Assembly: GCF_018139145.2 (NCBI RefSeq)
Contig: NC_059500.1
Location: 54,120,663-54,184,662, forward strand
Origin: Gymnogyps californianus
Taxonomy: Eukaryota; Chordata; Aves; Accipitriformes; Cathartidae
Length of the DNA: 64,000 nt
Reading direction: 5' to 3'
The position numbers were made by a program, and so were the translations under genes. Position 1 is the first letter of the stretch. Every line of letters begins with the position of its first letter. Positions 10,861 to 64,000 of the stretch are shown here, in pieces. Under the pieces are notes generated by a model that was not told where the DNA came from, ran no database searches, and saw only the letters and a program-made list of their open reading frames with translations.

Positions 10861-11491
10861 TGTTAAGGCCTGATGCATGCTGAGAGCCGCGCCATTAGGT
10901 CAAATTGAGGTCAACATGTAGGCAGGACACGGTGGCCAGAAGGGGCTAAAGGTCATTATGCAGCCATTATCATCTGCAACTTGCTGTCTCCTGCAGCCAT
11001 AATCCTGTCGTATTTGACAGTTTCTTCAGGATCTGCTAACTCATGGAAATGTTATAGACCAAACTTCCAAGATGGAAGGTACTAATACGTCAGTTTACCC
11101 AAAAAGTTTTTGAAGCAGTCCCAACAGCAGCTGGACTGCTGTGGTTTTTGTGCTTCCTGGTGTGATACAGGGGATGACCGCACCATGACGGAGGAGGAAG
11201 GATGAGCACTCTCACCATTGGCTAGGTAACTATTTTGCTCATAGCTGCATGAATTACAAGTTATGAGTAGCGAGTAATGAATTAGAGAACTTGTGAATTA
11301 GAAACCCAATAACTTCAGTGAAGATGTAGTGAATTCACATCCTAGAATAGTCGGTACAAAGGGAATAAGCACTTGTTTGTTGTGTTTGTTTGATTTCCTA
11401 TTCAGCTCATAATATAAGGTTTACTTTACAGAGTACATGGTCTTGTAAATTTGAAAGATCCAAAAGGACCGAGACACCGAGGCCTCTTGTC
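10861..11491. other. Left flank of the tandem array, no feature recognised
   Basis: Unique-looking sequence between a CR1 piece and the first array unit. No coding or RNA feature was recognised. The array homology begins abruptly at about 11492. Confidence 0.4.
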
Positions 11492-12145
11492 GTGTCACTG
11501 GGCACCTCTGAGAAGAGCCTGGCTCTGTCTTCGTTGCACCCTCCCTTTGGGTATTTATAGATGTCTGGATGAGGTCTCCCCTGTGCCTTCTCCTCCCTAG
11601 GCTGAACCGTCCCAGCTCTCTCAGCCTTTCCTCATAGGAGAGATGCTCCAGTCCCTTCACCGTCTTACTGGCCCTTCGCTGGCATATGTGCATGTGTCTC
11701 TTGTACTGGGGAGCCCAGAACTGGACACAGCACTCCAGGTGTGGCCTCACCAGTGCTGAGGAGAGGGCAAGGATCACCTCCCTCGACCTGCTGGCAGCAC
11801 TCCTCCTAGCGCAGTGCAGGATACCATTCGCCGCCTTTGCCGCGAGGGCACATTGCTGGCTCGTGTTCAGCTTGGTGTTGAACATAAACGAGAACACCAG
11901 CATGTTCCCCCCCTCAGGTGCAGGACTTGGCCCTTCACTCCTGGATGGACTTCATGAGGCCTCTGTCAGCCCATTTCTCCCGCCTGTTGAGGTCCCTCTG
12001 GAGGGCAGCACGACCTCTGGTGCATCAGCTGTGTGTCATCAGCAAACTTGCTGAGGGCACGCTCTGCCCCATCATCCAGATCATTAATGAAGATGTTAAA
12101 CAGGAGTGGACCCACTACTGAGCCCTGGGGTACGTCTCGCCCCAG
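11492..12145 (-). mobile_element. CR1 LINE fragment at left edge of unit A
   Basis: Reverse-orientation CR1. The minus strand shows [17 protein letters not shown], the RT block [19 protein letters not shown] and the FADDTQL polymerase motif in separate frames. Unlike its copies at 20646 and 34735 it lacks the CR1 3' end, so the array boundary cuts through it. Confidence 0.88.
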
Positions 12146-12882
12146 GAAGGTGTAGGACGTGCTCAGCTGTCTCCTGCAATGGGCCCGTTGGAGCTGGCTG
12201 GGACTGGCCATGTCTGGCACGGGGCAGCCCGGCCTCTGCCCACAGAGGCTCCCTCGGCAGTCCCGCCACTGCCAACACCTGGACAGGGACACCCAATACA
12301 CCAATACACCGGGCAAGGGCGTCTGGAGCGGCGCGGGTGCCTGGGCAAGGAGAGGCGGCAAGACTAGGCAGAGGGACTGCGGCCGGTGGAGGAGCGGTGG
12401 CGGGGACATGTGCCGAGAGGCTTTGCGAGGTCTGTCTTCTGGCCAGGGCCTCCACGTCGGGGGCTCCCGCCCGCCTGAGCTCGCATGGCGGGGAGAGTGC
12501 GCAGCAGGACTCTGTCTTTTTCCTCCTCTAGGTGCTGACTCTCGTCACAACCCGGCAAGGGCCTGCAAGCTGGCTCGTCGCAGCCAGATGTGGAGCCAGA
12601 GGGGCGGAGCAAGCCAAAGCCCCATGCAGCCCCAGCCCCAGCCCGGTGCAACCCAGAGCCAGCGCCCCCTCCTTGCCCCATGGGGACCCCCCGGCCAGCA
12701 GGGTTGGCCCTGCCCAGGCAGCGGGAAGGCAGGGGGCCCTGCTCAGGATCCTCCCTAACCCTGTGCTGCTATGTCAGATGCCCAGTGCCCTTGGGGCACC
12801 CTGTGCCCCCCTGCAGGGACCTTCGTGGTCCCCCAGGAGCCTACAAAGCACACAGCAAACAGCCTCCCTTCTCTGAACGGGC

Positions 12883-13190
12883 TGTGGTGGGTTGACCCCA
12901 GCAGACCGCTGCCCAGCCAGTCCCCAAGCAATGGCTCCTTTGGAAAGACCAAAGGCCCAGGCTTTATTGCGGAGCGTGACGTTACGTGGCATGGAGTCCC
13001 CTTTGGTGCTGTGTCCCCTCCCGACCTCTTGCCCACCCGCACAGCCTGCTCACTCGGGGACACGCAGAGAGAAACAGAGGAAGCCTCGGCGCTCTGCAAG
13101 CGCCGTTGCGCACCAGCGCAAACGCTGGTGTGTTTTCAACACTGTCTAGTTACAAAGGCAAAACACAGCGCCAAGTGGGCGGCGGGGTCT
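12883..13190 (-). mobile_element. Diverged ERVL-type LTR upstream of SUN copy A
   Basis: By eye the segment aligns to the provirus LTR at 43959. It starts TGTGGTGGGTTGACCCCAGC (LTR: TGTCGTGGTTTAACCCCAGT), passes a TGACGTTACGTGGCATGG block (LTR: TGACGTTCCATGGTATGG) and ends near TGTTTTCAACACTGTCTAG...AAAACACAGC (LTR: TGTTATCAACATCATTCTC...AAAACACAGC). The AT-rich centre of the LTR is largely missing. It is the same orientation as the other family members and about 300 bases before the SUN start codon. Confidence 0.65.
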
Positions 13191-13489
13191 CTCCCTGCCC
13201 CCCGCCCCCTGGTAGCTCCATCTGTGATGTCACAGCCATGACCTCACACCGTGCGGGGCCAGGCCTCTGTGAAGTCAAGGCTGGCCGCCCTGCCCCACGG
13301 CACTGTGGGCCACAACCTCCCGCCTGGAAGGAGCTTGCCGTGCCCTGGTGGCTGTGTGCCCGTGGCAGGCATTCTCCTCCCGGCAATCGGTTTTTGGCTC
13401 TCGCCCGAGTGGCCTCCCCTGGGCAGGCAACACTCAAGCGGCAGAAGGAGGACACACAGGCTTGCAGGGGAGCTTCATTTCTCCCCCAG

Positions 13490-16400
13490 ATGAGGAGGAG
13501 AAAGGCTCCTCCAAGAGCGCAAGGCGCTGCCCTGTCAAGGAGGAGAGCCGGCAGCAGCATGGACAGATGTGCAGCTGGGCCCACTCAGGTCCTCAAGAAC
13601 AGGTACGAGGGTTTGTTCCTCCTGGGGACATCAGCTGGCGGGTAGGACCCACAGAGCCCAAAGAGGGCCTGGGGGGACACGGCAGAGAAGGCGGCGAGCG
13701 CTGTGGGCGGTGCAACAGTCCCAGGGCTTGGGAAACCCGCCGTGAGTGGGGAAGAGGCTCAGCTGAAAGCCCCTCTGACCCCCTGGGCCCAACCCCCCGG
13801 GCCTGCTGCTCGGGGTCCCACCAGGAGACTCGGAGGTTCCTGCTGCTCTCCAGCACAGGCCGTTTCTGGGCACCTGCTGCAACCACCGTGCAGGTGTGTC
13901 TGGGCAGGCTCTGGCAGAGCCGCGGGAGAGCTCAGCCCTTGCCCCGCCAGGCCTCCCTGGCGCCGTGCTGCTGCGGCTGGAAGGTCCTGGTGGGTCTCTG
14001 CTGAGGGAGAGAAGCCTTGGGGGGTGTTTCGGAGAGGACTCTGGCCCTCGCGCTGCAGAGGCCTTGGGAAGAGGTGGGGGCTTTGGACGAGGGCAGCGGC
14101 TCCCCTCTCCCCATAGACCGCCAGGCCTCCGGGATGCCTGCCCAGGGGCAGGTTGGTGCTGTGGGGGCTGGGGGGCAGTCGGGGTAAGAAGCGGCTGTGC
14201 CACCCGGCTCTGCTGCTGCTTCTGCCCTGTCTCAGCACGGCGGGGACGTCTCCTGGGAGGCTTCCCAAAGCCTGTCTCCTTGGCTCAGGTGGCATGGAGA
14301 TGGTGCAAAACAGTGCTCCGTCTTTTTCCTCCCATAGGTGCAGCCCCTCTCAGGAGGACGAGGGCACCAGCTGGAGAGGGCCAGCGCGCTGCAGCTGCAG
14401 TGCGGGAGAAAATGAGCGTAAGTTCAGCGCTGCCTTTCACCCCGTGTTTGCACCAAGCCTGCCTGGCTCAGCTGGGACCGATGGCCCTGCAGAACCAGCA
14501 TCATCCTGCCCCGATGGAGGCCTGGGGCCACCTCGCCTATGCGACCATGACGGAGCTGGCTACCGTGGCCATGTCTTTGTGGGCTACTGAAGTAACCACG
14601 GGGTACCCCAGGACGGCAGAGGCCGAGAGGCCAAAGCCTCGTGCACCCTCCCTCCCCAGCCACGCCGTCAGTGCCCTGCCTGCAAGGGGATCCTGCCTGG
14701 CCCTCTGACCCCGGATCTCAGGGTGCAACCAGCACCCCCCCTCTCCAGGTCATAACCCTGCCCCTGCCCCTGCCCCTGCCCCTGCCCCACGGGGAGGGAG
14801 TGCGTAGGACGAGCGCCCACCTCCCCGCAGGGGTCTGGCACATGCCCTGACGGGCGTCCTCAAGAAGAGTCCTCAGGCTTTTGTCCGGTTTCTTTGCCCA
14901 GGGTTGGTCTTCAGCATTGCTTACAGCCTGGCAATGTCCGTGCTCTCCTTCCAGAGATGCCTCAGCACAGGCGTCTCCACCCTGTGAGTACAACACGTGT
15001 CCAGTGTGGACACGGAGACGGGGGGTGCCAGTGGGTAAGGGGGAGCAGGGGGGAGGCTGGAGGTGCTCCCCACCAGGAGATGCCCTGGCTCCCCTGTAAC
15101 TTGCTGCTCCTCAGCTTGTAAGAGAAAATCCCCCTGTGCAGGGCTCTGCCCTTAGGCACTGCTAACACCGGGACTTACTCTTTTTCAGGAAAGGGATCAT
15201 CAGCCTGAAAAAGGAGAGGTTCTTCACGATCCTCTTCTTGATGAGCCTAGCTGCTCTCGGTGAGTATTCGCGCGCTGTCAGCAGAGGCACAGAGGTGTGG
15301 GGTGCGAGCTTCAGCATGAGGGAGGGGCGCTGGAGCGCCCGTGAGGCCCTTCCAGCCACCCACCTTTGCGGGTCTGGGAGGTGACGAGATGCTGGCTGCA
15401 TGCAGGGGAAATGGGGCGTAGCTGTGGGGTGCAAAGCATGCCCGGGAACCAGGGCTGTGCAGAGCCCCGAGGCCCAGGGAGAGGGTCCCTGCTTGGAGCT
15501 GCAACCTCTCTCTGCACCCCTTCCCCGTGTCCTCAGCCAACCTCTTGCCACCCTGGTGTGGGAGGAGACCGCGTGACTACAGGGATCGTTAGAAACTCTA
15601 GTCAAGTAACTCTCTCTCGGTGATGTGAATTGCAGCTGGTGCCTGCTGCGGGACCTTGCTGCTCGTGTGGATGCTGCAGGCAAAGAATGTGCCACAGGTC
15701 AGTGGGACAGGAAAGTCCTGCAAAGGAGCACTGCTGGCGGTGGGTGGGTGGGTAAATCGCCCTGTCCTCCGGTTCCAGGCAGCGACCCACACAAGCGGCA
15801 GCAGCTTCTGCCGTGCCTTCCTAGAGCCGCCGGCTCTAGAAAACTCCGGCAGCTCTGGGACTCAAACGGAGAGCCTTTCTCTTTCAGGTGCTGCTGGGGC
15901 AGCCTGCAGCCGAGCTGAAGTCCCTGCGGTAAGAGCCCTCTCCTCTCTCCAGACCCGCAGCAGGTTTGGTGGGGGAGCGGCAGGTGCGGCCATGCTATTT
16001 GCACTCCCTTGCCCAGCGCCCAGGGCTCGTGCCTTTCGCTCCTGCCTGGGCCTTTTGCTAAACCTGGCGGGGGAGGGAAGCACTTGCAAACCAAGGAAAG
16101 AAAAGGGGGCTCGAGCACCTCTGTCTGTGCTCCTCCCGAGCTTGGAGGCTGCGGGAGGGGCTGGGCAGCTCTCTGACAAGATCTGCTTTCCCGCTGTCTG
16201 CAGGAACACGCTGGCTGTGTGGGGGAAACCATCCCAAGAAATGCAACAGCTGAGGGATGAGCTGGCGCGCCTGGCTGCAGAGATCGGCGCTATGCAGAAG
16301 GTGATGCTGCACTTTGGGAAAGAGGGCTGGGGCGAGCAGGGCCCCGCCCAAGGCCCTTCCTGGGCCAGTTGGTGGGCTTTTCCTGCTCAGCCCACACACC

Positions 16401-19181
16401 CGTCCCTTGCCAGGGGCTGCTGGTTGAGCTTCTCTGCTGTAAAGCCCCTTCTCCTGGCCAGGTCTGACGTGGTCGTTTCCCCTGTTCCTTTGTGTCTTTC
16501 CCAGGAAGCTGAGCAAATGAGAGAGGCCATGTCTGCAACCACGCGGATGTCTGACTGGGCTCTGAAAAGCGCAGGTACGGAGAGACCTCAGGTGCAGGCA
16601 GGCAGGGCTCGTCGCACTGGGCTCGTGCTTGGGGTTGCCAAAAGGAGGCTGCGCTGCAGACTCTGCTCTCCGCGGCAGAGGGAGGTGGGACGAAACCACG
16701 GGGCCCAAGAGCAGGATTGTGGCAGAGCGGCTCCCTTGGGCTCACCCCAGTCCTGCTGTCAGACGCCTCGCTGGTGCCCCGGCCATGCCCCTGACAGCAT
16801 TTCTGCCCTCTCCCTCTCCGCTGAGCTTTCCTGGGGAACGAAAGCGTATGGCTAGGTCATCCTCCGCTGTCCACGCAGCGGGGCCTTGGCTTGGGTCTGC
16901 GGCCCTTCCCGTGGGGGCTTGCTGTCTCGCAGCGCCCGCAGACCTTCTCTTTGTGCGGTTGCGGGAGAGAAGCCACCACCGGGCACAGGGATCCCCTCCT
17001 TTCCTGGGGCACTTCCGAGGGTGCGGTACTGCGTGCGGGGCTGGCAGGCAGCCTTAGAAGTCGCCTGCAGCCACCAGGTCCTCCGCGCCTGGGGCCTCTT
17101 GCAGTCAGCTGCTCTCTTCTCCCTTCAGGGGCTGCCATCGACCTGCAGAGATCGTTCAGCAGCTCGGCACGGCTCTGCAGGGTGTTTTGGTTCCTGTGTG
17201 CTCCACCCGTTCTGGATACCTTTGTGCAGGTATAGTAGCAGAAACCATCAGTGCTGCTTCTCTTGCCTCTCAGAAGGCTGGGGGCAAGCCCTGGGGCGTC
17301 TCGCCTCAGGCCGGTGGTATTGCTGAAGGCCGCGGCACTGGTCCGGTCTGGTGCCTGACACCTGAGGTCTCACACAGGGCTTGGCTCCCTCGAAAAGAGC
17401 AGTTGCCCTCAGAAGGGGGCTGAGCTGAGCTGAGCTGAGCTGAGCTGAGCTGAGCTGAGCTGAGCTTCCTGCCCACCATCGCTGGTCACTGCTGGGTGAA
17501 GAGGCTTCTTCTTTGGGAGCCCGTTTCCCTGCCACAGCTCTGATTGTCCCTCTGCCGATGGGGCAGTGGAGGGTGGGGGAAGGCTGCAGAGCTGCTGGCC
17601 AAGAAGAGAGGTTTCTTGAAAGGCCTGACTCCGGTGCAGGGTATCAGGTGTTTGCCACTGGCTGGCTGTTTTCCTCTTTCCTGGGCCGGGAAGACGGCCG
17701 GGCGCTTCTGCCCGCTTCCCAACACGCCATGCATTTCGAGCACAAGCAGAGCCCACAGGCGCAGTGCCGCCTGTGCTTCTGGCTGCAGGGGAGTGCAGCG
17801 GGCCCCATCCTGCCCTCGCGTTCATTGCTCTTGCCCTCTGCTTTCAGCCGGATGCTTCCCCGGGATACTGCTGGCCTTTCCAAGGGTCTCGGAGCGAGGT
17901 GCTAATCCGGTTGCCCACACAAACACGACCGACGGCCGTCATTATTCAGCACGCCTCAAAGATAGCCTCACCGCTGGGGACTGTCAGTAGCGCCCCCCGA
18001 GATTTCACTGTCTCTGTAAGTCTCTGCCGGGCACTGGGGCTGGGACCTGGCCACGGGGAAAAGCTGTAACGGGGACTTGCTGCTCTCTGCGCATCTGCCG
18101 AGATTCGTGTGCTCCGAAGCACTGCTGTTCCCTGAGGGGACATTTCAAGGGACACGCGGGCTGCTGTCACCCCTCCTAAGACTTGCTCAGCGCGTTTTGG
18201 CCCGGCACCTCCGGGCCCCTGAGCAACACACAAGGAGGGGACTCAGCCCCACCGCATCCTGTGCCAGACGGCACTGGAGCCGCAGGAGTGGGGCGCAGGT
18301 CACGGGCCCGGATCTGGCATGCGCGTTTCCTCATGGTCGAGTCGAGCCTGACCCGCTCCCCGGTGCTTTATCTCCAAGGGGCTGGATGAGGAAGGCGAGG
18401 AGGAAACTCTGCTGGGGACGTTCACCTACGCCGTGCAGAAAGAGCTGACCCAGACCTTCCCTCTGCAGGTACAGTGCGCGCGAGCAGGCAAGAGGCCAGG
18501 GCAGAGACGCCGGTTTGCCAGCAAGTCGCCTGCAGAAGGCGCGTGGACGGTCCCTGCCGGGGCAGGGGCCCGACCCGGGCCGAGAGAAGCATTGGCGGGA
18601 TCGGGAGGGAGAGTGGCATCGGGCAGGGCGGCAAAAGCAGAACAAAGGCCGCGCTGGCCCCACAGCCGTCCTGGTCCCCGGAGCTGCCTGGCAGCACCCG
18701 CCAGGCAGGCGGTGGCAGGGAGGACGCCCAGCACCTTGCCCCGGCATCAGGACTTTCCCTGGGCCCCGCTTCCCCGGCAGCAGCGAGCCTCAGGTTTCCA
18801 GAGCTGCCGGCCACACTGTCTGAGGCCGGGCGTTTGCTCTGCAGGGGCCCAGGGGTCCTTTGCCGCGGGGGTGGGAGAAGGGAAGGAGGGAGAAGCTGCC
18901 GCCTCAGCCAGGGCGGGAGCTGGTCCCGGAGCAGGGGCGGGGCTGGCGGAGGAAGATGCGCGGAGCCCGCTCTGAGTCCTTACAGCCCAGGAGTGACGCT
19001 GCTTTTTGCCGTGGTTTCTTTGCAGAATGGGATCCCCAGAGCCTTTCGGTTTTTGAAACTTGGCATACGGAGCAACTGGGGAAAACCAGGATACACCTGC
19101 ATTTATCGAGTGCAGGTGCATGGGAAGATTGTGGGAACGAATGCCGTCGGCGAGACGCATGTGAAGACCTTCCCTCAGTAA
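13490..19181 (+). CDS. SUN domain protein, copy A (12 coding exons, intact)
   Basis: SUN proteins span the inner nuclear membrane and bind KASH proteins to form LINC bridges. Coding exons are 13490-13602, 14338-14417, 14902-14983, 15189-15259, 15636-15697, 15888-15928, 16204-16300, 16505-16574, 17129-17229, 17848-18015, 18379-18468 and 19026-19181. All introns are GT-AG, all phases agree, and the sum is 1131 bases (376 residues plus stop). Residues 1-64 are basic and Cys-rich. Hydrophobic stretches lie at about 66-82 and 103-129, and a heptad-like coiled coil at about 160-205. The SUN domain (206-376) contains GAAIDLQ, PGYCWPFQG, SSAPRDF, LLGTFTY and SNWGKPGYTCIYRVQVHG. Residues matching the SUN2 disulfide (C247/C350) and KASH pocket (H274, Y348, Y352) are present. 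Length and layout fit SPAG4/SUN3/SUN5; the exact orthologue is unresolved. The start at MRRRK is the least certain point, since the frame is open upstream and the Kozak context is weak. Confidence 0.88.
17420..17466. repeat. TGAGC pentamer repeat, 9 units (intron 9, copy A)
   Basis: Nine perfect tandem TGAGC (GAGCT) pentamers in intron 9 of SUN copy A. The same site has seven units in copy B (26808-26842) and eight in copy C (31517-31556), so it is a length-variable microsatellite. Confidence 0.95.
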
Positions 19182-20645
19182 CGATTAAAGAGGAGAATGG
19201 AGAAAGAGACCGGAGGGATGCGGCTGTTAGTGTGGTGCAGAGCAATGTTGTTTCAGAGGCCCTCTCAAAGCTGCCAACTTCTGCCTTTCGCAGGCTGAGG
19301 CCTTCCTCAGGCTCTCCGCTTTCTCTCCAGCACGGGGATGTTTCCTAACGGAGCAAAAGGAGACGACGCTCCCGTAGCCTTTCCGTGCCTAAGGTCCTTG
19401 ACGAAATCCTGTGGCACGAGGGCCGCCCCCCCCATCTCGCCCCAAGAAGGAGTCGTCGGAGCCTGGCAGCGTTTGGGGGTCATGATCCCCAAAGCACTGG
19501 CCCATTCCATTCAGGGGGCACCTTGGCTCTGGGGACTGGGGTGCAGCCATGGCTGGGACCCTTGAGGGGTCTGAAACTCCAGCACCGAGGCTCCTCCCAG
19601 AGTTTCACAGGCCCTGCGGTTACTCCAGTCCCAGGCCACGTAGGGCCTAGGGTTTGGCCATATTGTCCACCAGCGTGTGTCACAAACCCAAACCAACTTC
19701 TTGATTCGGGGAATTTCTCCCCGTCTAACTGACTTGCCCGTGAGCAACCTATTAACTACTGCTCCTCATATTGAAGGAAAAGAAACGCAAACAAAACCCG
19801 TTTGGGAGTCATGGTTCCCAAAGCACTGGCCCATTCCATTTAGGGGCACCTGGGCTCTGGGGACTGGGTGGGGTGGGGGCCCAGATGGGGTGCAGGCATG
19901 TCTGCGACCCTTGAGGGGTGTCTGAGATGGATGAGGAGGCCTGAGCAGCCTGTCGCCGGGGTGGGGGGGGATCCTGGCTCAGCTCCTCCGTGCCCGTGTG
20001 CGCTCCCAGGCACAGCCCTCCACTTCTGCCTTCTGCCTTCTGCTTCTCTTCAAGAGAGCCACCGTTCTGCCGCCCTGAAACTCCAACGCACAGCCAGCTC
20101 CCAGCTGAATGCTGTACACACAAACATCTGTCTTTGTCACGGGGAGATTTGCCCAGTTCAGCTCTACGTCTTCAACAGCCAGTACGCAAGGGTATGCACC
20201 TACACCCATTCATCTCAGGTGGATGTCAACTCTGAAGCCTCAAGCTGACGGTTCCACCGTCACCCCTGCTGCTCTGCTAAGTATAGCACTAGGAGGCCTG
20301 AAGGCCAGTGTAATGTCCCTCTCACTCCAGCGGGCGCAGCTTTGCGGGGAAAGCTTGGGCACCTCTGCTCTCCTTCCACCTTGCTTTCCTCATTTGCCTT
20401 TGAAGGGAATGGGGGAATAGGCAAGTTCAGGTGCACAGTTACATTGTCGTCAAGCTAATTCACAGGTCAGTGGGTGGGGGAGGTTGGTGGGCTGCTGCCC
20501 ACAGTTCCGCTGCCACTGTCCTCTGTTGGCAGGGAAATGGGACCACATTGGTGCAAGCTTCATTTCCCGTGGAAGTCGCTGTCAGAAATGCTTGGAAGAA
20601 AAGCCTCTGCTCAACGGTCTGCAAGAGGACGGCTGTAAGCTTAGA
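19182..20645 (+). other. 3' flank of SUN copy A with internal direct repeat and exon-like segments
   Basis: An ATTAAA hexamer lies 2 bases after the stop codon (19184-19189), which seems too close to serve as the only poly(A) signal. Blocks at about 19467-19580 and 19800-19930 are imperfect direct repeats (GTTTGGG..GTCATG, CCAAAGCACTGGCCCATTCC). Two segments look exon-like: 20053-20190, and 20533-20636 (after a TTGGCAG acceptor and before a GTAAGC donor). I do not recognise either. Confidence 0.5.
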
Positions 20646-21560
20646 CTCATAGAGTGACTGAGGTTGGAAGAGACCTCTGCAGGTCATCTGTCCAACGGCC
20701 CTGCTCCAGCAGGGCCACCTACGGCCGGTTGCCCAGGACCGTGTCCAGACGGCTTTTGACTATCTCCAAGGTAGGAGACTCTACAGCCTCTCTGGGCAGC
20801 CTGCACCAGGGCTCAGTCACCCTCGTGGTAACAAAGTGTTTCCTGATGTTCAGAGGGCGCCTGCCGTGTTTCAGTCTGTGCCCATCGCCTCTGGTCCTGT
20901 CACTGGGCACCGCTGAGAAGAGCCTGGCTCTGTCTTCGTTGCACCCTCCCTTTGGGTATTTATAGATGTCTGGATGAGGTCTCCCCTGTGCCTTCTCCTT
21001 CCTAGGCTGAACCGTCCCAGCTCTCTCAGCCTTTCCTCATAGGAGAGATGCTCCAGTCCCTTCACCGTCTTACTGGCCCTTCGCTGGCATATGTGCATGT
21101 GTCTCTTGTACTGGGGAGCCCAGAACTGGACACAGCACTCCAGGTGTGGCCTCACCAGTGCTGAGGAGAGGGCAAGGATCACCTCCCTCGACCTGCTGGC
21201 AGCACTCCTCCTAGCGCAGTGCAGGATACCATTCGCCGCCTTTGCCGCGAGGGCACATTGCTGGCTCGTGTTCAGCTTGGTGTTGAACATAAACGAGAAC
21301 ACCAGCATGTTCCCCCTCAGGTGCAGGACTTGGCCCTTCACTCCTGGATGGACTTCATGAGGCCTCTGTCAGCCCATTTCTCCCGCCTGTTGAGGTCCCT
21401 CTGGAGGGCAGCACGACCTCTGGTGCATCAGCTGTGTGTCATCAGCAAACTTGCTGAGGGCACGCTCTGCCCCATCATCCAGATCATTAATGAAGATGTT
21501 AAACAGGAGTGGACCCACTACTGAGCCCTGGGATACGTCTCGCCCCAGGAAGGCGTAGGA
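20646..21560 (-). mobile_element. CR1 LINE fragment between units A and B
   Basis: Reverse-orientation CR1, collinear with 11492-12145 but with about 245 extra bases of 3' end at the left (ACTCATAGAGTGACTGAGG start). RT motifs [15 protein letters not shown] and FADDTQL are on the minus strand. Confidence 0.88.
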
Positions 21561-22285
21561 CGTGCTCAGCTGTCTCCTGCAATGGGCCCGTTGGAGCTGG
21601 CTGGGACTGGCCATGTCTGGCACGGGGCAGCCCGGCCTCTGCCCACAGAGGCTCCCTCGGCAGTCCCGCCACTGCCAACACCTGGACAGGGACACCCAAT
21701 ACACCAATACACCGGGCAAGGGCGTCTGGAGCGGCGCGGGTGCCTGGGCAAGGAGAGGCGGCAAGACTAGGCAGAGGGACTGCGGCCGGTGGAGGAGCGG
21801 TGGCGGGGACATGTGCCGAGAGGCTTTGCGAGGTCTGTCTTCTGGCCAGGGCCTCCACGTCGGGGGCTCCCGCCCGCCTGAGCTCGCATGGCGGGGAGAG
21901 AGTGCGCAGCAGGACTCTGTCTTTTTCCTCCTCTAGGTGCTGACTCTCGTCACAACCCGGCAAGGGCCTGCAAGCTGGCTCGTCGCAGCCAGATGTGGAG
22001 CCAGAGGGGCGGAGCAAGCCAAAGCCCCATGCAGCCCCAGCCCCAGCCCGGTGCAACCCAGAGCCAGCGCCCCCTCCTTGCCCCATGGGACCCCCCGGCC
22101 AGCAGGGTTGGCCCTGCCCAGGCAGCGGGAAGGCAGGGGCCCTGCTCAGGATCCTCCCTAACCCTGTGCTGCTATGTCAGATGCCCAGTGCCCTTGGGGC
22201 ACCCTGTGCCCCCCTGCAGGGACCTTCGTGGTCCCCCAGGAGCCTACAAAGCACACAGCAAACAGCCTCCCTTCTCTGAACGGGC

Positions 22286-22592
22286 TGTGGTGGGTTGACC
22301 CCAGCAGACCGCTGCCCAGCCAGTCCCCAAGCAATGGCTCCTTTGGAAAGACCAAAGGCCCAGGCTTTATTGCGGAGCGTGACGTTACGTGGCATGGAGT
22401 CCCCTTTGGTGCTGTGTCCCCTCCCGACCTCTTGCCCACCCGCACAGCCTGCTCACTCGGGGACACGCAGAGAGAAACAGAGGAAGCCTCGGCGCTCTGC
22501 AAGCGCCGTTGCGCACCAGCGCAAACGCTGGTGTGTTTTCAACACTGTCTAGTTACAAAGGCAAAACACAGCGCCAAGTGGGCGGCGGGGTC
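22286..22592 (-). mobile_element. Diverged ERVL-type LTR upstream of SUN copy B
   Basis: Same LTR remnant as at 12883-13190, duplicated with the array unit. Starts TGTGGTGGGTTGACCCC. Confidence 0.65.
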
Positions 22593-22888
22593 TCTCCCTG
22601 CCCCCGCCCCCTGGTAGCTCCATCTGTGATGTCACAGCCATGACCTCACACCGTGCGGGGCCAGGCCTCTGTGAAGTCAAGGCTGGCCGCCCTGCCCACG
22701 GCACTGTGGGCCACAACCTCCCGCCTGGAAGGAGCTTGCCGTGCCCTGGTGGCTGTGTGCCCGTGGCAGGCATTCTCCTCCCGGCAATCGGTTTTTGGCT
22801 CTCGCCGAGTGGCCTCCCCTGGGCAGGCAACACTCAAGCGGCAGAAGGAGGACACACAGGCTTGCAGGGGAGCTTCATTTCTCCCCAG

Positions 22889-25800: not shown

Positions 25801-28548
25801 TTGAGCTTCTCTGCTGTAAAGCCCCTTCTCCTGGCCAGGTCTGACGTGGTCGTTTCCCCTGTTCCTTTGTGTCTTTCCCAGGAAGCTGAGCAAATGAGAG
25901 AGGCCATGTCTGCAACCACGCGGATGTCTGACTGGGCTCTGAAAAGCGCAGGTACGGAGAGACCTCAGGTGCAGGCAGGCAGGGCTCGTCGCACTGGGCT
26001 CGTGCTTGGGGTTGCCAAAAGGAGGCTGCGCTGCAGACTCTGCTCTCCGCGGCAGAGGGAGGTGGGACGAAACCACGGGGCCCAAGAGCAGGATTGTGGC
26101 AGAGCGGCTCCCTTGGGCTCACCCCAGTCCTGCTGTCAGACCCCTCGCTGGTGCCCCGGCCATGCCCCTGACAGCATTTCTGCCCTCTCCCTCTCCGCTG
26201 AGCTTTCCTGGGGAACGAAAGCGTATGGCTAGGTCATCCTCCGCTGTCCACGCAGCGGGGCCTTGGCTTGGGTCTGCGGCCCTTCCCGTGGGGGCTTGCT
26301 GTCTCGCAGCGCCCGCAGACCTTCTCTTTGTGCGGTTGCGGGAGAGAAGCCACCACCGGGCACAGGGATCCCCTCCCTTCCTGGGGCACTTCCGAGGGTG
26401 CGGTACTGCGTGCGGGGCTGGCAGGCAGCCTTAGAAGTCGCCTGCAGCCACCAGGTCCTCCGCGCCTGGGGCCTCTTGCAGTCAGCTGCTCTCTTCTCCC
26501 TTCAGGGGCTGCCATCGACCTGCAGAGATCGTTCAGCAGCTCGGCACGGCTCTGCAGGGTGTTTTGGTTCCTGTGTGCTCCACCCGTTCTGGATACCTTT
26601 GTGCAGGTATAGTAGCAGAAACCATCAGTGCTGCTTCTCTTGCCTCTCAGAAGGTTGGGGGCAAGCCCTGGGGCGTCTCCCCTCAGGCCGGTGGTATTGC
26701 TGAAGGCCGCGGCACTGGTCCGGTCTGGTGCCTGACACCTGAGGTCTCACACAGGGCTTGGCTCCCTCGAAAAGAGCAGTTGCCCTCAGAAGGGGGCTGA
26801 GCTGAGCTGAGCTGAGCTGAGCTGAGCTGAGCTTCCTGCCCACCATCGCTGGTCACTGCTGGGTGAAGAGGCTTCTTCTTTGGGAGCCCATTTCCCTGCC
26901 ACAGCTCTGATTGTCCCTCTGCCGATGGGGCAGTGGAGGGTGGGGGAAGGCTGCAGAGCTGCTGGCCAAGAAGAGAGGTTTCTTGAAAGGCCTGACTCCG
27001 GTGCAGGGTATCAGGTGTTTGCCACTGGCTGGCTGTTTTCCTCTTTCCTGGGCCGGGAAGACGGCCGGGCGCTTCTGCCCGCTTCCCAACACGCCATGCA
27101 TTTCGAGCACAAGCAGAGCCCACAGGCGCAGTGCCGCCTGTGCTTCTGGCTGCAGGGGAGTGCAGCGGGCCCCATCCTGCCCTCGCGTTCATTGCTCTTG
27201 CCCTCTGCTTTCAGCCGGATGCTTCCCCGGGATACTGCTGGCCTTTCCAAGGGTCTCGGAGCGAGGTGCTAATCCGGTTGCCCACACAAACACGACCGAC
27301 GGCCGTCATTATTCAGCACGCCTCAAAGATAGCCTCACCGCTGGGGACTGTCAGTAGCGCCCCCCGAGATTTCACTGTCTCTGTAAGTCTCTGCCGGGCA
27401 CTGGGGCTGGGACCTGGCCACGGGGAAAAGCTGTAACGGGGACTTGCTGCTCTCTGCGCATCTGCCGAGATTCGTGTGCTCCGAAGCACTGCTGTTCCCT
27501 GAGGGGACATTTCAAGGGACACGCGGGCTGCTGTCACCCCTCCTAAGACTTGCTCAGCGCGTTTTGGCCCGGCACCTCCGGGCCCCTGAGCAACACACAA
27601 GGAGGGGACTCAGCCCCACCGCATCCTGTGCCAGACGGCACTGGAGCCGCAGGAGTGGGGCGCAGGTCACGGGCCCGGATCTGGCATGCGCGTTTCCTCA
27701 TGGTCGAGTCGAGCCTGACCCGCTCCCCGGTGCTTTATCTCCAAGGGGCTGGATGAGGAAGGCGAGGAGGAAACTCTGCTGGGGACGTTCACCTACGCCG
27801 TGCAGAAAGAGCTGACCCAGACCTTCCCTCTGCAGGTACAGTGCGCGCGAGCAGGCAAGAGGCCAGGGCAGAGACGCCGGTTTGCCAGCAAGTCGCCTGC
27901 AGAAGGCGCGTGGACGGTCCCTGCCGGGGCAGGGGCCCGACCCGGGCCGAGAGAAGCATTGGCGGGATCGGGAGGGAGAGTGGCATCGGGCAGGGCGGCA
28001 AAAGCAGAACAAAGGCCGCGCTGGCCCCACAGCCGTCCTGGTCCCCGGAGCTGCCTGGCAGCACCCGCCAGGCAGGCGGTGGCAGGGAGGACGCCCAGCA
28101 CCTTGCCCCGGCATCAGGACTTTCCCTGGGCCCCGCTTCCCCGGCAGCAGCGAGCCTCAGGTTTCCAGAGCTGCCGGCCACACTGTCTGAGGCCGGGCGT
28201 TTGCTCTGCAGGGGCCCAGGGGTCCTTTGCCGCGGGGGTGGGAGAAGGGAAGGAGGGAGAAGCTGCCGCCTCAGCCAGGGCGGGAGCTGGTCCCGGAGCA
28301 GGGGCGGGGCTGGCGGAGGAAGATGCGCGGAGCCCGCTCTGAGTCCTTACAGCCCAGGAGTGACGCTGCTTTTTGCCGTGGTTTCTTTGCAGAATGGGAT
28401 CCCCAGAGCCTTTCGGTTTTTGAAACTTGGCATACGGAGCAACTGGGGAAAACCAGGATACACCTGCATTTATCGAGTGCAGGTGCATGGGAAGATTGTG
28501 GGAACGAATGCCGTCGGCGAGACGCATGTGAAGACCTTCCCTCAGTAA
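22889..28548 (+). CDS. SUN domain protein, copy B (12 exons, two 1-bp exon deletions)
   Basis: Exons match copy A: 22889-23001, 23725-23803, 24285-24365, 24568-24638, 25014-25075, 25265-25305, 25581-25677, 25882-25951, 26506-26606, 27215-27382, 27746-27835 and 28393-28548. Exon 2 is 79 rather than 80 bases (CCCC read as CCC) and exon 3 is 81 rather than 82 (CCC read as CC). Taken at face value the reading frame breaks twice before the transmembrane region. Exons 4-12 are identical in length to copy A and encode the same coiled coil and full SUN domain. The two exon deletions belong to a cluster of 26 net one-base losses in homopolymers between about 22600 and 25120, so they may be consensus errors rather than true mutations. 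It is either an intact second gene or a very young pseudogene. Confidence 0.75.
26808..26842. repeat. TGAGC pentamer repeat, 7 units (intron 9, copy B)
   Basis: Seven perfect tandem TGAGC units at the position equivalent to 17420 in copy A. The two-unit difference accounts exactly for the 10-base offset change between copies A and B here. Confidence 0.95.
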
Positions 28549-29984
28549 CGATTAAAGAGGAGAATGGAGAAAGAGACCGGAGGGATGCGGCTGTTAGTGT
28601 GGTGCAGAGCAATGTTGTTTCAGAGGCCCTCTCAAAGCTGCCAACTTCTGCCTTTCGCAGGCTGAGGCCTTCCTCAGGCTCTCCGCTTTCTCTCCAGCAC
28701 GGGGATGTTTCCTAACGGAGCAAAAGGAGACGACGCTCCCGTAGCCTTTCCGTGCCTAAGGTCCTTGACGAAATCCTGTGGCACGAGGGCCGCCCCCCCC
28801 ATCTCGCCCCAAGAAGGAGTCGTCGGAGCCTGGCAGCGTTTGGGGGTCATGATCCCCAAAGCACTGGCCCATTCCATTCAGGGGGCACCTTGGCTCTGGG
28901 GACTGGGGTGCAGCCATGGCTGGGACCCTTGAGGGGTCTGAAACTCCAGCACCGAGGCTCCTCCCAGAGTTTCACAGGCCCTGCGGTTACTCTAGTCCCA
29001 GGCCACGTAGGGCCTAGGGTTTGGCCATATTGTCCACCAGCGTGTGTCACAAACCCAAACCAACTTCTTGATTCGGGGAATTTCTCCCCGTCTAACTGAC
29101 TTGCCCGTGAGCAACCTATTAACTACTGCTCCTCATATTGAAGGAAAAGAAACGCAAACAAAACCCGTTTGGGAGTCATGGTTCCCAAAGCACTGGCCCA
29201 TTCCATTTAGGGGCACCTGGGCTCTGGGGACTGGGTGGGGTGGGGGCCCAGATGGGGTGCAGGCATGTCTGCGACCCTTGAGGGGTGTCTGAGATGGATG
29301 AGGAGGCCTGAGCAGCCTGTCGCCGGGGTGGGGGGGGATCCTGGCTCAGCTCCTCCGTGCCCGTGTGCGCTCCCAGGCACAGCCCTCCACTTCTGCCTTC
29401 TGCCTTCTGCTTCTCTTCAAGAGAGCCACCGTTCTGCCGCCCTGAAACTCCAACGCACAGCCAGCTCCCAGCTGAATGCTGTACACACAAACATCTGTCT
29501 TTGTCACGGGGAGATTTGCCCAGTTCAGCTCTACGTCTTCAACAGCCAGTACGCAAGGGTATGCACCTACACCCATTCATCTCAGGTGGATGTCAACTCT
29601 GAAGCCTCAAGCTGACGGTTCCACCGTCACCCCTGCTGCTCTGCTAAGTATAGCACTAGGAGGCCTGAAGGCCAGTGTAATGTCCCTCTCACTCCAGCGG
29701 GCGCAGCTTTGCGGGGAAAGCTTGGGCACCTCTGCTCTCCTTCCACCTTGCTTTCCTCATTTGCCTTTGAAGGGAATGGGGGAATAGGCAAGTTCAGGTG
29801 CACAGTTACATTGTCGTCAAGCTAATTCACAGGTCAGTGGGTGGGTGGGTAAATCGCCCTGTCCTCCGGTTCCAGGCAGCGACCCACACAAGCGGCAGCA
29901 GCTTCTGCCGTGCCTTCCTAGAGCCGCCGGCTCTAGAAAACTCCGGCAGCTCTGGGACTCAAACGGAGAGCCTTTCTCTTTCAG

Positions 29985-32900
29985 GTGCTGCTGGGGCAGC
30001 CTGCAGCCGAGCTGAAGTCCCTGCGGTAAGAGCCCTCTCCTCTCTCCAGACCCGCAGCAGGTTTGGTGGGGGAGCGGCAGGTGCGGCCATGCTATTTGCA
30101 CTCCCTTGCCCAGCGCCCAGGGCTCGTGCCTTTCGCTCCTGCCTGGGCCTTTTGCTAAACCTGGCGGGGGAGGGAAGCACTTGCAAACCAAGGAAAGAAA
30201 AGGGGGCTCGAGCACCTCTGTCTGTGCTCCTCCCGAGCTTGGAGGCTGCGGGAGGGGCTGGGCAGCTCTCTGACAAGATCTGCTTTCCCGCTGTCTGCAG
30301 GAACACGCTGGCTGTGTGGGGGAAACCATCCCAAGAAATGCAACAGCTGAGGGATGAGCTGGCGCGCCTGGCTGCAGAGATCGGCGCTATGCAGAAGGTG
30401 ATGCTGCACTTTGGGAAAGAGGGCTGGGGCGAGCAGGGCCCCGCCCAAGGCCCTTCCTGGGCCAGTTGGTGGGCTTTTCCTGCTCAGCCCACACACCCGT
30501 CCCTTGCCAGGGGCTGCTGGTTGAGCTTCTCTGCTGTAAAGCCCCTTCTCCTGGCCAGGTCTGACGTGGTCGTTTCCCCTGTTCCTTTGTGTCTTTCCCA
30601 GGAAGCTGAGCAAATGAGAGAGGCCATGTCTGCAACCACGCGGATGTCTGACTGGGCTCTGAAAAGCGCAGGTACGGAGAGACCTCAGGTGCAGGCAGGC
30701 AGGGCTCGTCGCACTGGGCTCGTGCTTGGGGTTGCCAAAAGGAGGCTGCGCTGCAGACTCTGCTCTCCGCGGCAGAGGGAGGTGGGACGAAACCACGGGG
30801 CCCAAGAGCAGGATTGTGGCAGAGCGGCTCCCTTGGGCTCACCCCAGTCCTGCTGTCAGACCCCTCGCTGGTGCCCCGGCCATGCCCCTGACAGCATTTC
30901 TGCCCTCTCCCTCTCCGCTGAGCTTTCCTGGGGAACGAAAGCGTATGGCTAGGTCATCCTCCGCTGTCCACGCAGCGGGGCCTTGGCTTGGGTCTGCGGC
31001 CCTTCCCGTGGGGGCTTGCTGTCTCGCAGCGCCCGCAGACCTTCTCTTTGTGCGGTTGCGGGAGAGAAGCCACCACCGGGCACAGGGATCCCCTCCTTCC
31101 TGGGGCACTTCCGAGGGTGCGGTACTGCGTGCGGGGCTGGCAGGCAGCCTTAGAAGTCGCCTGCAGCCACCAGGTCCTCCGCGCCTGGGGCCTCTTGCAG
31201 TCAGCTGCTCTCTTCTCCCTTCAGGGGCTGCCATCGACCTGCAGAGATCGTTCAGCAGCTCGGCACGGCTCTGCAGGGTGTTTTGGTTCCTGTGTGCTCC
31301 ACCCGTTCTGGATACCTTTGTGCAGGTATAGTAGCAGAAACCATCAGTGCTGCTTCTCTTGCCTCTCAGAAGGTTGGGGGCAAGCCCTGGGGCGTCTCCC
31401 CTCAGGCCGGTGGTATTGCTGAAGGCCGCGGCACTGGTCCGGTCTGGTGCCTGACACCTGAGGTCTCACACAGGGCTTGGCTCCCTCGAAAAGAGCAGTT
31501 GCCCTCAGAAGGGGGCTGAGCTGAGCTGAGCTGAGCTGAGCTGAGCTGAGCTGAGCTTCCTGCCCACCATCGCTGGTCACTGCTGGGTGAAGAGGCTTCT
31601 TCTTTGGGAGCCCATTTCCCTGCCACAGCTCTGATTGTCCCTCTGCCGATGGGGCAGTGGAGGGTGGGGGAAGGCTGCAGAGCTGCTGGCCAAGAAGAGA
31701 GGTTTCTTGAAAGGCCTGACTCCGGTGCAGGGTATCAGGTGTTTGCCACTGGCTGGCTGTTTTCCTCTTTCCTGGGCCGGGAAGACGGCCGGGCGCTTCT
31801 GCCCGCTTCCCAACACGCCATGCATTTCGAGCACAAGCAGAGCCCACAGGCGCAGTGCCGCCTGTGCTTCTGGCTGCAGGGGAGTGCAGCGGGCCCCATC
31901 CTGCCCTCGCGTTCATTGCTCTTGCCCTCTGCTTTCAGCCGGATGCTTCCCCGGGATACTGCTGGCCTTTCCAAGGGTCTCGGAGCGAGGTGCTAATCCG
32001 GTTGCCCACACAAACACGACCGACGGCCGTCATTATTCAGCACGCCTCAAAGATAGCCTCACCGCTGGGGACTGTCAGTAGCGCCCCCCGAGATTTCACT
32101 GTCTCTGTAAGTCTCTGCCGGGCACTGGGGGCTGGGACCTGGCCACGGGGAAAAGCTGTAACGGGGACTTGCTGCTCTCTGCGCATCTGCCGAGATTCGT
32201 GTGCTCCGAAGCACTGCTGTTCCCTGAGGGGACATTTCAAGGGACACGCGGGCTGCTGTCACCCCTCCTAAGACTTGCTCAGCGCGTTTTGGCCCGGCAC
32301 CTCCGGGCCCCTGAGCAACACACAAGGAGGGGACTCAGCCCCACCGCATCCTGTGCCAGACGGCACTGGAGCCGCAGGAGTGGGGCGCAGGTCACGGGCC
32401 CGGATCTGGCATGCGCGTTTCCTCATGGTCGAGTCGAGCCTGACCCGCTCCCCGGTGCTTTATCTCCAAGGGGCTGGATGAGGAAGGCGAGGAGGAAACT
32501 CTGCTGGGGACGTTCACCTACGCCGTGCAGAAAGAGCTGACCCAGACCTTCCCTCTGCAGGTACAGTGCGCGCGAGCAGGCAAGAGGCCAGGGCAGAGAC
32601 GCCGGTTTGCCAGCAAGTCGCCTGCAGAAGGCGCGTGGACGGTCCCTGCCGGGGCAGGGGCCCGACCCGGGCCGAGAGAAGCATTGGCGGGATCGGGAGG
32701 GAGAGTGGCATCGGGCAGGGCGGCAAAAGCAGAACAAAGGCCGCGCTGGCCCCACAGCCGTCCTGGTCCCCGGAGCTGCCTGGCAGCACCCGCCAGGCAG
32801 GCGGTGGCAGGGAGGACGCCCAGCACCTTGCCCCGGCATCAGGACTTTCCCTGGGCCCCGCTTCCCCGGCAGCAGCGAGCCTCAGGTTTCCAGAGCTGCC

Positions 32901-33273
32901 GGCCACACTGTCTGAGGCCGGGCGTTTGCTCTGCAGGGGCCCAGGGGTCCTTTGCCGCGGGGGTGGGAGAAGGGAAGGAGGGAGAAGCTGCCGCCTCAGC
33001 CAGGGCGGGAGCTGGTCCCGGAGCAGGGGCGGGGCTGGCGGAGGAAGATGCGCGGAGCCCGCTCTGAGTCCTTACAGCCCAGGAGTGACGCTGCTTTTTG
33101 CCGTGGTTTCTTTGCAGAATGGGATCCCCAGAGCCTTTCGGTTTTTGAAACTTGGCATACGGAGCAACTGGGGAAAACCAGGATACACCTGCATTTATCG
33201 AGTGCAGGTGCATGGGAAGATTGTGGGAACGAATGCCGTCGGCGAGACGCATGTGAAGACCTTCCCTCAGTAA
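29985..33273 (+). pseudogene. SUN domain gene, copy C (exons 6-12 only)
   Basis: Only exons 6-12 are present: 29985-30025, 30301-30397, 30602-30671, 31225-31325, 31939-32106, 32471-32560 and 33118-33273. All splice sites and the reading frame are intact. They encode the equivalent of residues 137-376: linker, coiled coil and a complete SUN domain ending FPQ-stop. There is no start codon, N-terminus or transmembrane exon, because the unit begins within intron 5. It lies in the same orientation directly downstream of copy B. Exon 5 of B could therefore splice to exon 6 of C in phase, making C a duplicated 3' cassette. With no promoter of its own it is otherwise a partial pseudogene. Transcription cannot be judged from sequence. 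Confidence 0.8.
31517..31556. repeat. TGAGC pentamer repeat, 8 units (intron 9, copy C)
   Basis: Eight perfect tandem TGAGC units, intermediate between copies A and B. Confidence 0.95.
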
Positions 33274-34734
33274 CGATTAAAGAGGAGAATGGAGAAAGAG
33301 ACCGGAGGGATGCGGCTGTTAGTGTGGTGCAGAGCAATGTTGTTTCAGAGGCCCTCTCAAAGCTGCCAACTTCTGCCTTTCGCAGGCTGAGGCCTTCCTC
33401 AGGCTCTCCGCTTTCTCTCCAGCACGGGGATGTTTCCTAACGGAGCAAAAGGAGACGACGCTCCCGTAGCCTTTCCGTGCCTAAGGTCCTTGACGAAATC
33501 CTGTGGCACGAGGGCCGCCCCCCCCATCTCGCCCCAAGAAGGAGTCGTCGGAGCCTGGCAGCGTTTGGGGGTCATGATCCCCAAAGCACTGGCCCATTCC
33601 ATTCAGGGGGCACCTTGGCTCTGGGGACTGGGGTGCAGCCATGGCTGGGACCCTTGAGGGGTCTGAAACTCCAGCACCGAGGCTCCTCCCAGAGTTTCAC
33701 AGGCCCTGCGGTTACTCCAGTCCCAGGCCACGTAGGGCCTAGGGTTTGGCCATATTGTCCACCAGCGTGTGTCACAAACCCAAACCAACTTCTTGATTCG
33801 GGGAATTTCTCCCCGTCTAACTGACTTGCCCGTGAGCAACCTATTAACTACTGCTCCTCATATTGAAGGAAAAGAAACGCAAACAAAACCCGTTTGGGAG
33901 TCATGGTTCCCAAAGCACTGGCCCATTCCATTTAGGGGCACCTGGGCTCTGGGGACTGGGTGGGGTGGGGGCCCAGATGGGGTGCAGGCATGTCTGCGAC
34001 CCTTGAGGGGTGTCTGAGATGGATGAGGAGGCCTGAGCAGCCTGTCGCCGGGGTGGGGGGGGATCCTGGCTCAGCTCCTCCGTGCCCGTGTGCGCTCCCA
34101 GGCACAGCCCTCCACTTCTGCCTTCTGCCTTCTGCTTCTCTTCAAGAGAGCCACCGTTCTGCCGCCCTGAAACTCCAACGCACAGCCAGCTCCCAGCTGA
34201 ATGCTGTACACACAAACATCTGTCTTTGTCACGGGGAGATTTGCCCAGTTCAGCTCTACGTCTTCAACAGCCAGTACGCAAGGGTATGCACCTACACCCA
34301 TTCATCTCAGGTGGATGTCAACTCTGAAGCCTCAAGCTGACGGTTCCACCGTCACCCCTGCTGCTCTGCTAAGTATAGCACTAGGAGGCCTGAAGGCCAG
34401 TGTAATGTCCCTCTCACTCCAGCGGGCGCAGCTTTGCGGGGAAAGCTTGGGCACCTCTGCTCTCCTTCCACCTTGCTTTCCTCATTTGCCTTTGAAGGGA
34501 ATGGGGGAATAGGCAAGTTCAGGTGCACAGTTACATTGTCGTCAAGCTAATTCACAGGTCAGTGGGTGGGGAGGTTGGTGGGCTGCTGCCCCACAGTTCC
34601 ACTGCCAGTGTCCTCTGTTGGCAGGGAAATGGGACCACATTGGTGCAAGCTTCATTTCCCATGGAAGTCGCTGTCAGAAATGCTTGGAAGAAAAGCCTCT
34701 GCTCAACGGTCTGCAAGAGGACGGCTGTAAGCTT

Positions 34735-35650
34735 AGACTCATAGAGTGACTGAGGTTGGAAGAGACCTCTGCAGGTCATCTGGTCCAACGCCCCTGCTCT
34801 AGCAGGGCCACGTACGGCTGGTTGCCCAGGACCGTGTCCAGACGGCTTTTGACTATCTCCAAGGTAGGAGACTCTACAGCCTCTCTGGGCAGCCTGCACC
34901 AGGGCTCAGTCACCCTCGTGGTAACAAAGTGTTTCCTGATGTTCAGAGGGCGCCTGCCGTGTTTCAGTCTGTGCCCATCGCCTCTGGTCCTGTCACTGGG
35001 CACCACTGAGAAGAGCCTGGCTCTGTCTTCGTTGCACCCTCCCTTTGGGTATTTATAGATGTCTGGATGAGGTCTCCCCTGTGCCTTCTCTTCCTAGGCT
35101 GAACCGTCCCAGCTCTCTCAGCCTTTCCTCATAGGAGAGATGCTCCAGTCCCTTCACCGTCTTGCTGGCCCTTCGCTGGCATATGTGCATGTGTCTCTTG
35201 TATTGGGGAGCCCAGAACTGGACACAGCACTCCAGGTGTGGCCTCACCAGTGCTGAGGAGAGGGCAAGGATCACCTCCCTCGACCTGCTGGCAGCACTCC
35301 TCCTAGCGCAGTGCAGGATACCATTTGCCGCCTTTGCCGCGAGGGCACATTGCTGGCTCGTGTTCAGCTTGGTGTTGAACATAAACGAGAACACCAGCAT
35401 GTTCCCCCCTCAGGTGCAGGACTTGGCCCTTCACTCCTGGATGGACTTCATGAGGCCTCTGTCAGCCCATTTCTCCCGCCTGTTGAGGTCCCTCTGGAGG
35501 GCAGCACGACCTCTGGTGCATCAGCTGTGTGTCATCAGCAAACTTGCTGAGGGCACGCTCTGCCCCATCATCCAGATCATTAATGAAGATGTTAAACAGG
35601 AGTGGACCCACTACTGAGCCCTGGGGTACGTCTCGCCCCAGGAAGGCGTA
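34735..35650 (-). mobile_element. CR1 LINE fragment between units C and D
   Basis: Reverse-orientation CR1 equivalent to that at 20646-21560, including its 3' end. Same RT motifs on the minus strand. Confidence 0.88.
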
Positions 35651-36378
35651 GGACGTGCTCAGCTGTCTCCTGCAATGGGCCCGTTGGAGCTGGCTGGGAC
35701 TGGCCATGTCTGGCACGGGCCAGCCCGGCCTCTGCCCACAGAGGCTCCCTCGGCAGTCCCGCCACTGCCAACACCTGGACAGGGACACCCAATACACCAA
35801 TACACCGGGCAAGGGCGTCTGGAGCGGCGCGGGTGCCTGGGCAAGGAGAGGCGGCAAGACTAGGCAGAGGGACTGCGGCCAGTGGAGGAGCGGTGGCGGG
35901 GACATGTGCCGAGAGGCTTTGCGAGGTCTGTCTTCTGGCCAGGGCCTCCACATCGGGGGCTCCCGCCCGCCTGAGCTCGCATGGCGGGGAGAGAGTGCGC
36001 AGCAGGACTCTGTCTTTTTCCTCCTCTAGGTGCTGACTCTCGTCACAACCCGGCAAGGGCCTGCAAGCTGGCTCGTCGCAGCCAGATGTGGAGCCAGAGG
36101 GGCGGAGCAAGCCAAAGCCCCATGCAGCCCCAGCCCCAGCCCGGTGCAACCCAGAGCCAGCGCCCCCTCCTTGCCCCATGGGGACCCCCGGCCGGCAGGG
36201 TTGGCCCTGCCCAGGCAGCGGGAAGGCAGGGGGCCCTGCTCAGGATCCTCCCTAACCCTGTGCTGCTATGTCAGATGCCCAGTGCGCTTGGGGCACCCTG
36301 TGCCCCCTGCAGGGACCTTCCTGGTCCCCCAGGAGCCTACAAAGCACACAGCAAACAGCCTCCCTTCTCTGAACGGGC

Positions 36379-36685
36379 TGTGGTGGGTTGACCCCAGCAG
36401 ACCGCTGCCCAGCCAGTCCCCAAGCAATGGCTCCTTTGGAAAGACCAAAGGCCCAGGCTTTATTGCGGAGCGTGACGTTACATGGCATGGAGTCCCCCTT
36501 TGGTGCTGTGTCCCCTCCCGACCTCTTGCCTACCCGCACAGCCTGCTCGCTCGGGGACACGCAGAGAGAAACAGAGGAAGCCTTGGCGCTCTGCAAGCGC
36601 CGTTGCGCACCAGCGCAAACGCTGGTGTGTTTTCAACACTGTCTAGTTACAAAGGCAAAACACAGCGCCAAGTGGGCGGCGGGGT
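36379..36685 (-). mobile_element. Diverged ERVL-type LTR in unit D
   Basis: Third copy of the LTR remnant seen at 12883 and 22286, here without a downstream SUN gene. Confidence 0.6.
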
Positions 36686-36771
36686 CTCTCCCTGCCCCCC
36701 ACCCCCTGGTAGCTCCGTCTGTGATGTCACAGCCATGACCTCACACCGTGCGGGGCCAGGCCTCTGTGAAG

Positions 36772-44564: not shown

Positions 44565-44582
44565 ATATCCACCCCTTATTCT
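44565..44582 (-). promoter_or_regulatory. Polypurine tract next to the 3' LTR
   Basis: The minus strand reads AATAAGGGGTGGATAT directly before the LTR start, a purine-rich plus-strand primer site in the expected position. Confidence 0.6.
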
Positions 44583-45085: not shown

Positions 45086-45228
45086 TAAAATCAAATCCCC
45101 TTGAGGCACACATCGGACTTCCCCGTCCTTCCGCATCACCCACCAAGTGCACCCAGGCCCTTGAGCAAAAGCAATCCCACGAATGGGTTTGCCTTTGCCT
45201 GAGGCAGGAGTAACCCAAACTGTTTTTC

Positions 45229-50461: not shown

Positions 50462-50468
50462 AAAAGGC

Positions 50469-57966: not shown

Positions 57967-64000
<6,034 letters not shown>

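Follow-up and report, generated by a model that had tools for sequence, protein, structure and literature searches.

A probable young tandem amplification of a SPAG4/SUN5-like gene on the Z chromosome of the California condor

INTRODUCTION

How does a SUN-domain gene come to stand in a row of nearly identical copies between RCL1 and AK3 on a bird chromosome? The question is raised by a stretch of 64,000 nucleotides from the California condor (Gymnogyps californianus, contig NC_059500.1; the whole stretch is referred to here as the window), in which self-comparison revealed a direct-repeat array spanning 11482-36771. Mammals have five SUN genes, and in spermatids the proteins of the linker of nucleoskeleton and cytoskeleton (LINC) complex govern the shape of the sperm head and the anchoring of head to tail. 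An earlier note on the window had proposed a recent, lineage-specific and probably Z-linked amplification of a SUN gene akin to those expressed in testis, comparable to the ampliconic testis genes of sex chromosomes. Our results indicate that the array is very probably a young tandem amplification of a bird SPAG4/SUN5-like gene on the condor Z, coding for what is likely a spermatid LINC protein.

RESULTS

The array contains an intact SUN gene. When unit 1 was spliced over 12 exons, 1131 nucleotides remained, encoding 376 amino acids and a stop, with GT donors and AG acceptors at all 11 introns; exon 1 and the exon 3 border were set by comparison with paralogues. The 5' end of the gene is uncertain, as an alternative beginning at 14300 gives a product of 351 residues. 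In addition, a stretch of about 790 bp (window 13573-14347) interrupts what is one exon in another condor copy, at 48 Mb, and splice sites near its edges preserve the reading frame, so that two exons stand in place of one. The Sad1/UNC84 domain (Pfam PF07738) was matched in two frames (4.8e-14 and 3.7e-7), and the product matched a SUN2 structure in the PDB (E 5.6e-36) and has the SUN fold. With the topology read from sequence and a predicted model, hydropathy peaks at 2.2 at residue 106 and the model shows long helices. The window protein retains IQH, SSAPRDF and YTCIYR, which align with SUN2 stretches that we take to be contacts with KASH, its putative partner. The cysteine of the SUN2 stretch RCSETYE has no counterpart, and the KASH-lid region is shorter than in the condor's own SUN1 and SUN2.

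Around this gene, a 9.4-kb unit recurs in the same orientation as a second copy of the whole gene region, a 3'-half copy and a 5'-flank stub (Table 1). Identities among the copies range from 98.5 to 99.8%, and the 3'-half copy, which is without exons 1-5, is identical at every one of 241 aligned residues, 240 of them from exons 6-12 and one a chance residue before exon 6. These results uphold much of the earlier note: a spliced 12-exon SUN gene with a 376-residue product, a recent amplification, and a position inside a divergent RCL1-AK3 pair. Its account of the copies, namely two complete units, a 3' half and a 5' flank that are almost identical, needs one correction, since the second "complete" unit is without its final ~408 bp.

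The gene belongs to a bird family of considerable breadth. Most named bird relatives are recorded as "sperm-associated antigen 4 protein-like" (SPAG4-like) and some as SUN5-, SUN3- or SUN2-like; annotated relatives range from ostrich and kiwi to parrots and include an owl protein of 375 residues with 71% identity. The king vulture orthologue on record is an open protein of 351 residues (P0002). In a midpoint-rooted tree of 65 rows, composed without mammalian sequences and so leaving orthology to any single mammalian gene not established, the window copy falls inside a 59-row group of bird SPAG4-like proteins (100/98), outside which stand SUN1/SUN2 (97/95) and the SUN3-like rows (100/100). The king vulture protein groups with the window copy before the condor's own neighbouring Z cluster does (98/90), and a database protein from Gymnogyps californianus (P0021) pairs with the 48-Mb copy (100/99). 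The earlier note's view of a lineage-specific event is thus not supported for the gene itself, whereas the kinship with testis SUN proteins that it proposed is supported by both the SPAG4-like names and the testis enrichment of chicken Sun5/Spag4 co-orthologues described in the available part of PMC6609395. Two further bird proteins, P0078 and P0095 (parrot and pigeon), are recorded as interferon alpha and also carry a SUN domain; presumably they are fused models of neighbouring genes.

The window lies on the condor Z chromosome. We searched a genome of 1.24 Gb in 542 contigs, where the window sits on contig C30 (85,355,094 bp). Three DM-domain matches, one of them partial, lie at 55.54-55.64 Mb on that contig, 1.4 Mb from the window. 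We take this cluster to be the DMRT1-DMRT3-DMRT2 cluster of the bird Z, and on that basis C30 is the Z, as the earlier note had thought probable. Across the genome there are at least 51 SUN-domain loci, with 46 on six multi-copy contigs. Nine of these are on the Z contig at four places (47.1, 48.4, 54.1 and 54.4 Mb), and 37 of the 46 lie elsewhere, on C27, C241, C274, C318 and C510, contigs that may include W. The small contigs C318 and C510 (loci L029, L030, L031 and L004-L007; 742 and 350 kb), which may belong to a dot chromosome or to W, hold 15 SUN3-like and 12 SPAG4-like loci, each count above the nine of the Z contig; the sequences read cover a few of these loci. Elsewhere, a locus on C5 (L024; G000:C5:41021001-41031000) matches the SUN domain along 108 positions in a single stretch interrupted by four stops, and is probably a dead processed copy.

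A second Z cluster (G000:C30:54366001-54404000, L012-L015) lies 0.2 Mb from the window on the opposite strand and is about 7% diverged over 17818-19805. Within each of its units there is, in addition, a truncated second stretch of 5' gene sequence that runs into 3' flank. Because the orientation of this cluster is reversed, an inversion is suggested to have split one array into the window and 54.4-Mb clusters.

Given this location, copy number itself might be what is selected, as expected for an amplicon driven by sexual conflict or meiotic drive. The nine loci at four Z places and the fast evolution of the N-terminal part of the protein are in keeping with such a history, but it is unlikely in view of the 37 loci off the Z contig, even if some of those contigs prove to be W. 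The broader likeness to ampliconic testis genes that the earlier note had drawn holds for the near-identical tandem copies on the Z; it may be too narrow, given that many relatives occupy other contigs, and self-comparison found no inverted repeats of at least 200 bp within the window.

The copies differ in state and age. Exons 2 and 3 of unit 2 carry 1-bp deletions when set against unit 1. One aligner counted 22 substitutions and 32 indels between the two units in 8953 aligned bases (BLAST gave 14 mismatches and 50 gap letters). In 30 of these indels it is unit 2 that has lost sequence, a one-sidedness with a two-sided binomial p of 2.5e-7; 31 fall within the unit's first 4.3 kb, and by our own rule 22 lie in homopolymers. 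Because the deletions are one-sided, clustered and homopolymer-rich, they are likely consensus errors in an unpolished stretch. A single substitution separates unit 2 from the 3'-half copy across 4728 aligned bases, against 20 across 1789 between the stub and unit 1. Such unequal differences imply that the copies do not share one date of origin or of homogenisation.

The same observations could be read as an assembly artefact, in which mis-joined noisy long reads multiplied one or two real units. The clustering of homopolymer-rich deletions towards the 5' end of unit 2, within its 5' half, the join at a 9-bp homology and the near-absence of substitutions between unit 2 and the 3'-half copy would all suit that reading. 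Yet the divergence of the stub from unit 1 would not be expected from it, nor would the other tandem SUN clusters in the same assembly, where the two compared have copies differing by about 0.8%, and we consider an artefact quite improbable. No likelier is a relic array in which drifting pseudogenes persist through repeat dynamics alone, because unit 1 has an open frame of 376 codons, the king vulture orthologue is recorded as an open protein, and the ratio of nonsynonymous to synonymous substitution rates (dN/dS) of the SUN domain against the window copy is 0.20-0.56. The SUN domain appears more constrained than the rest of the protein, clearly so in one of three pairs tested.

Base composition sets the array apart from its surroundings, with a GC content of 62.2% compared to 45.0% and 43.2% in sampled flanks (3.0-11.4 kb and 37.5-47.5 kb). 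We considered gene conversion within the array as a specific cause and rejected it, since the single-copy 48-Mb locus and other stretches on the Z, C27 and C274 are mostly 55-64% GC too. The richness therefore goes with the gene family.

The edges of the units carry a CR1-like long interspersed nuclear element (LINE), and the CR1-like stretch also spans the join of units 1 and 2. The name CR1 is our assumption, the reverse-transcriptase matches being below the Pfam cut-off. At the 48-Mb locus, stretches matching 20644-20885 and 11482-11745 are adjacent upstream of the gene, and unit-end and unit-start sequence recurs downstream. Because such sequence flanks the 48-Mb gene on both sides, a CR1-gene-CR1 layout probably predates the separation of the two loci.

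Outside the array, RCL1 and AK3 form a divergent pair, placed by exon matches with probe sequences. A scan of two plus-strand frames found no further Pfam domains in 36772-48000, and an Rfam search gave no match at the gathering threshold. A dispersed repeat of about 610 bp occurs in the RCL1-AK3 region at 43958-44570, 50468-51077 and 63230-63844; two copies are 99% identical and the third about 82%.

Table 1. Features of the window, in window positions
Feature	Position	Strand	Basis or remark
RCL1 exon 1, left neighbour	2302..2433	-	Gene runs leftward
CR1-like LINE fragment at unit edge	11482..12544	-	RVT_1 E 4.7e-6, below Pfam cut-off
Unit 1, complete (9405 bp), bearing the intact SUN gene	11482..20886	+	Self-comparison, splicing
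Exon 1 (start codon, MRRRK...)	13490..13602	+	
Alternative start region (MVQNSAPSFSSHR...)	14300..14337	+	351-aa product, form recorded for king vulture (P0002)
Exon 2	14338..14417	+	
Exon 3	14902..14983	+	
Exon 4	15189..15259	+	Transmembrane segment begins
Exon 5	15636..15697	+	Transmembrane segment ends
Exon 6	15888..15928	+	
Exon 7	16204..16300	+	Coiled-coil-like helix in orthologue's predicted model
Exon 8	16505..16574	+	
Exon 9	17129..17229	+	SUN domain start and shortened KASH-lid region
Exon 10	17848..18015	+	SUN domain
Exon 11	18379..18468	+	SUN domain
Exon 12	19026..19181	+	SUN domain end, stop
Unit 2, gene region whole, final ~408 bp of unit missing	20887..29845	+	Homologous to unit-1 11482-20478
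Unit 2 gene	~22893-28548	+	Approximate, by offset from unit 1
Third copy, 3' half of unit	29837..34979	+	Corresponds to unit-1 15740-20886; exons 6-12 only (29985-33273)
9-bp overlap GTGGGTGGG	29837..29845	+	Unit-2/third-copy junction
Fourth copy, 5'-flank stub (1.8 kb)	34980..36771	+	Corresponds to unit-1 11482-13274
AK3, two matched exons, right neighbour	58291-58422, 62780-62905 (span 58291..62905)	+	Run rightward

DISCUSSION

Our analysis points to a SPAG4-like gene that is itself ordinary, within a bird family expanded to an unusual degree, and to an array that is real and well supported by sequence within one assembly. The family would multiply by birth and death in CR1-bearing units, with new copies probably arising by unequal exchange between them. 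The half copy then probably came from a further deletion joined at the 9-bp repeat GTGGGTGGG, which is common to both joined places at its start and matches what is expected for deletion between short direct repeats.

The protein is predicted to start with a basic N-terminus and to continue through a weakly hydrophobic segment to a single transmembrane helix, with a short coiled coil between that helix and the SUN domain. By analogy with mouse SUN4/SPAG4, and if the gene is expressed in spermatids, the protein would most likely reside in the inner nuclear membrane of these cells. There it may pair with a putative KASH partner across the perinuclear space and thereby help to shape or anchor the sperm nucleus. 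Mammalian SPAG4 (SUN4) and SUN5 are likewise small SUN proteins with a weaker hydrophobic segment before one strong transmembrane segment and a C-terminal SUN domain; unlike them, the condor gene is multicopy and Z-linked. SUN1 and SUN2 share the SUN fold but stand on the opposite side of the deepest split in the midpoint-rooted tree (100/98).

Expansion of this kind has a precedent. According to the available part of PMC6609395, chicken has numerous Sun3, Sun5 and Spag4 duplications that zebrafish does not, amounting to 31 chicken co-orthologues; relative expression in testis is at least 50% for 20 Sun5/Spag4 co-orthologues and 20-50% for 11 Sun3 co-orthologues. The chicken expansion is thus comparable, yet that part of the source takes its gene counts from Ensembl orthology and describes neither arrays nor an analysis of selection, and the condor arrays are separate local events. 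In the accessible portions of other sources, a chicken SPAG4 is located on chromosome 25 (PMC5421773), and outlier loci in penguins include some named SPAG4, SUN3 and SUN2, with autosomal scaffolds mentioned there (PMC11371425). In the open PMC literature, surveyed mostly through search listings, we recognised no description of a Z-linked SUN/SPAG4 array in birds. As far as that literature shows, expansion of this kind was already known, and what the condor adds is the detail of its arrays and how they are built.

The distribution of the family among birds raises a further, tentative idea. No passerine or falcon appeared among the named matches of three protein searches (99 named of 107 matches; 118 named of the best 120 of 168; 74 named of 80), in which candidates had to have short words and a similar length in common with the query. 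The search with a parrot protein scored all of its 2089 candidates and gave 80 matches, all listed, that reached ostrich and turkey, so a relative from a passerine would be expected among them if it were no more distant. Passerine sperm have a corkscrew head and are without perforatorium, proximal centriole and annulus, whereas non-passerine sperm are filiform with both centrioles; in mammals SUN5 is associated with the connection between head and tail, and SUN3 and SUN4 with the manchette (PMC8812575, in the part available). It is conceivable, though rather doubtful, that a SPAG4/SUN5-like family retained and repeatedly re-amplified in many bird orders was lost or changed beyond recognition in passerines, maybe tied to a centriole-based head-neck anchor, and with its copy number tuning the filiform architecture of sperm. 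Two observations weigh against such a loss: other orders, woodpeckers and cuckoos among them, are also unnamed among the matches, and the gap is in protein records, not in genomes.

If true, a joint loss of the family and the proximal centriole in passerines would be notable. More generally, with some 46 loci on multi-copy contigs and Z arrays still turning over, one could ask whether the copy number or sequence of a sperm-nucleus anchor tracks sperm form and the evolution of sex chromosomes. The condor is a captive-bred endangered species, and copy-number variation at what is likely a Z-linked fertility gene family would be measurable in resequencing data.
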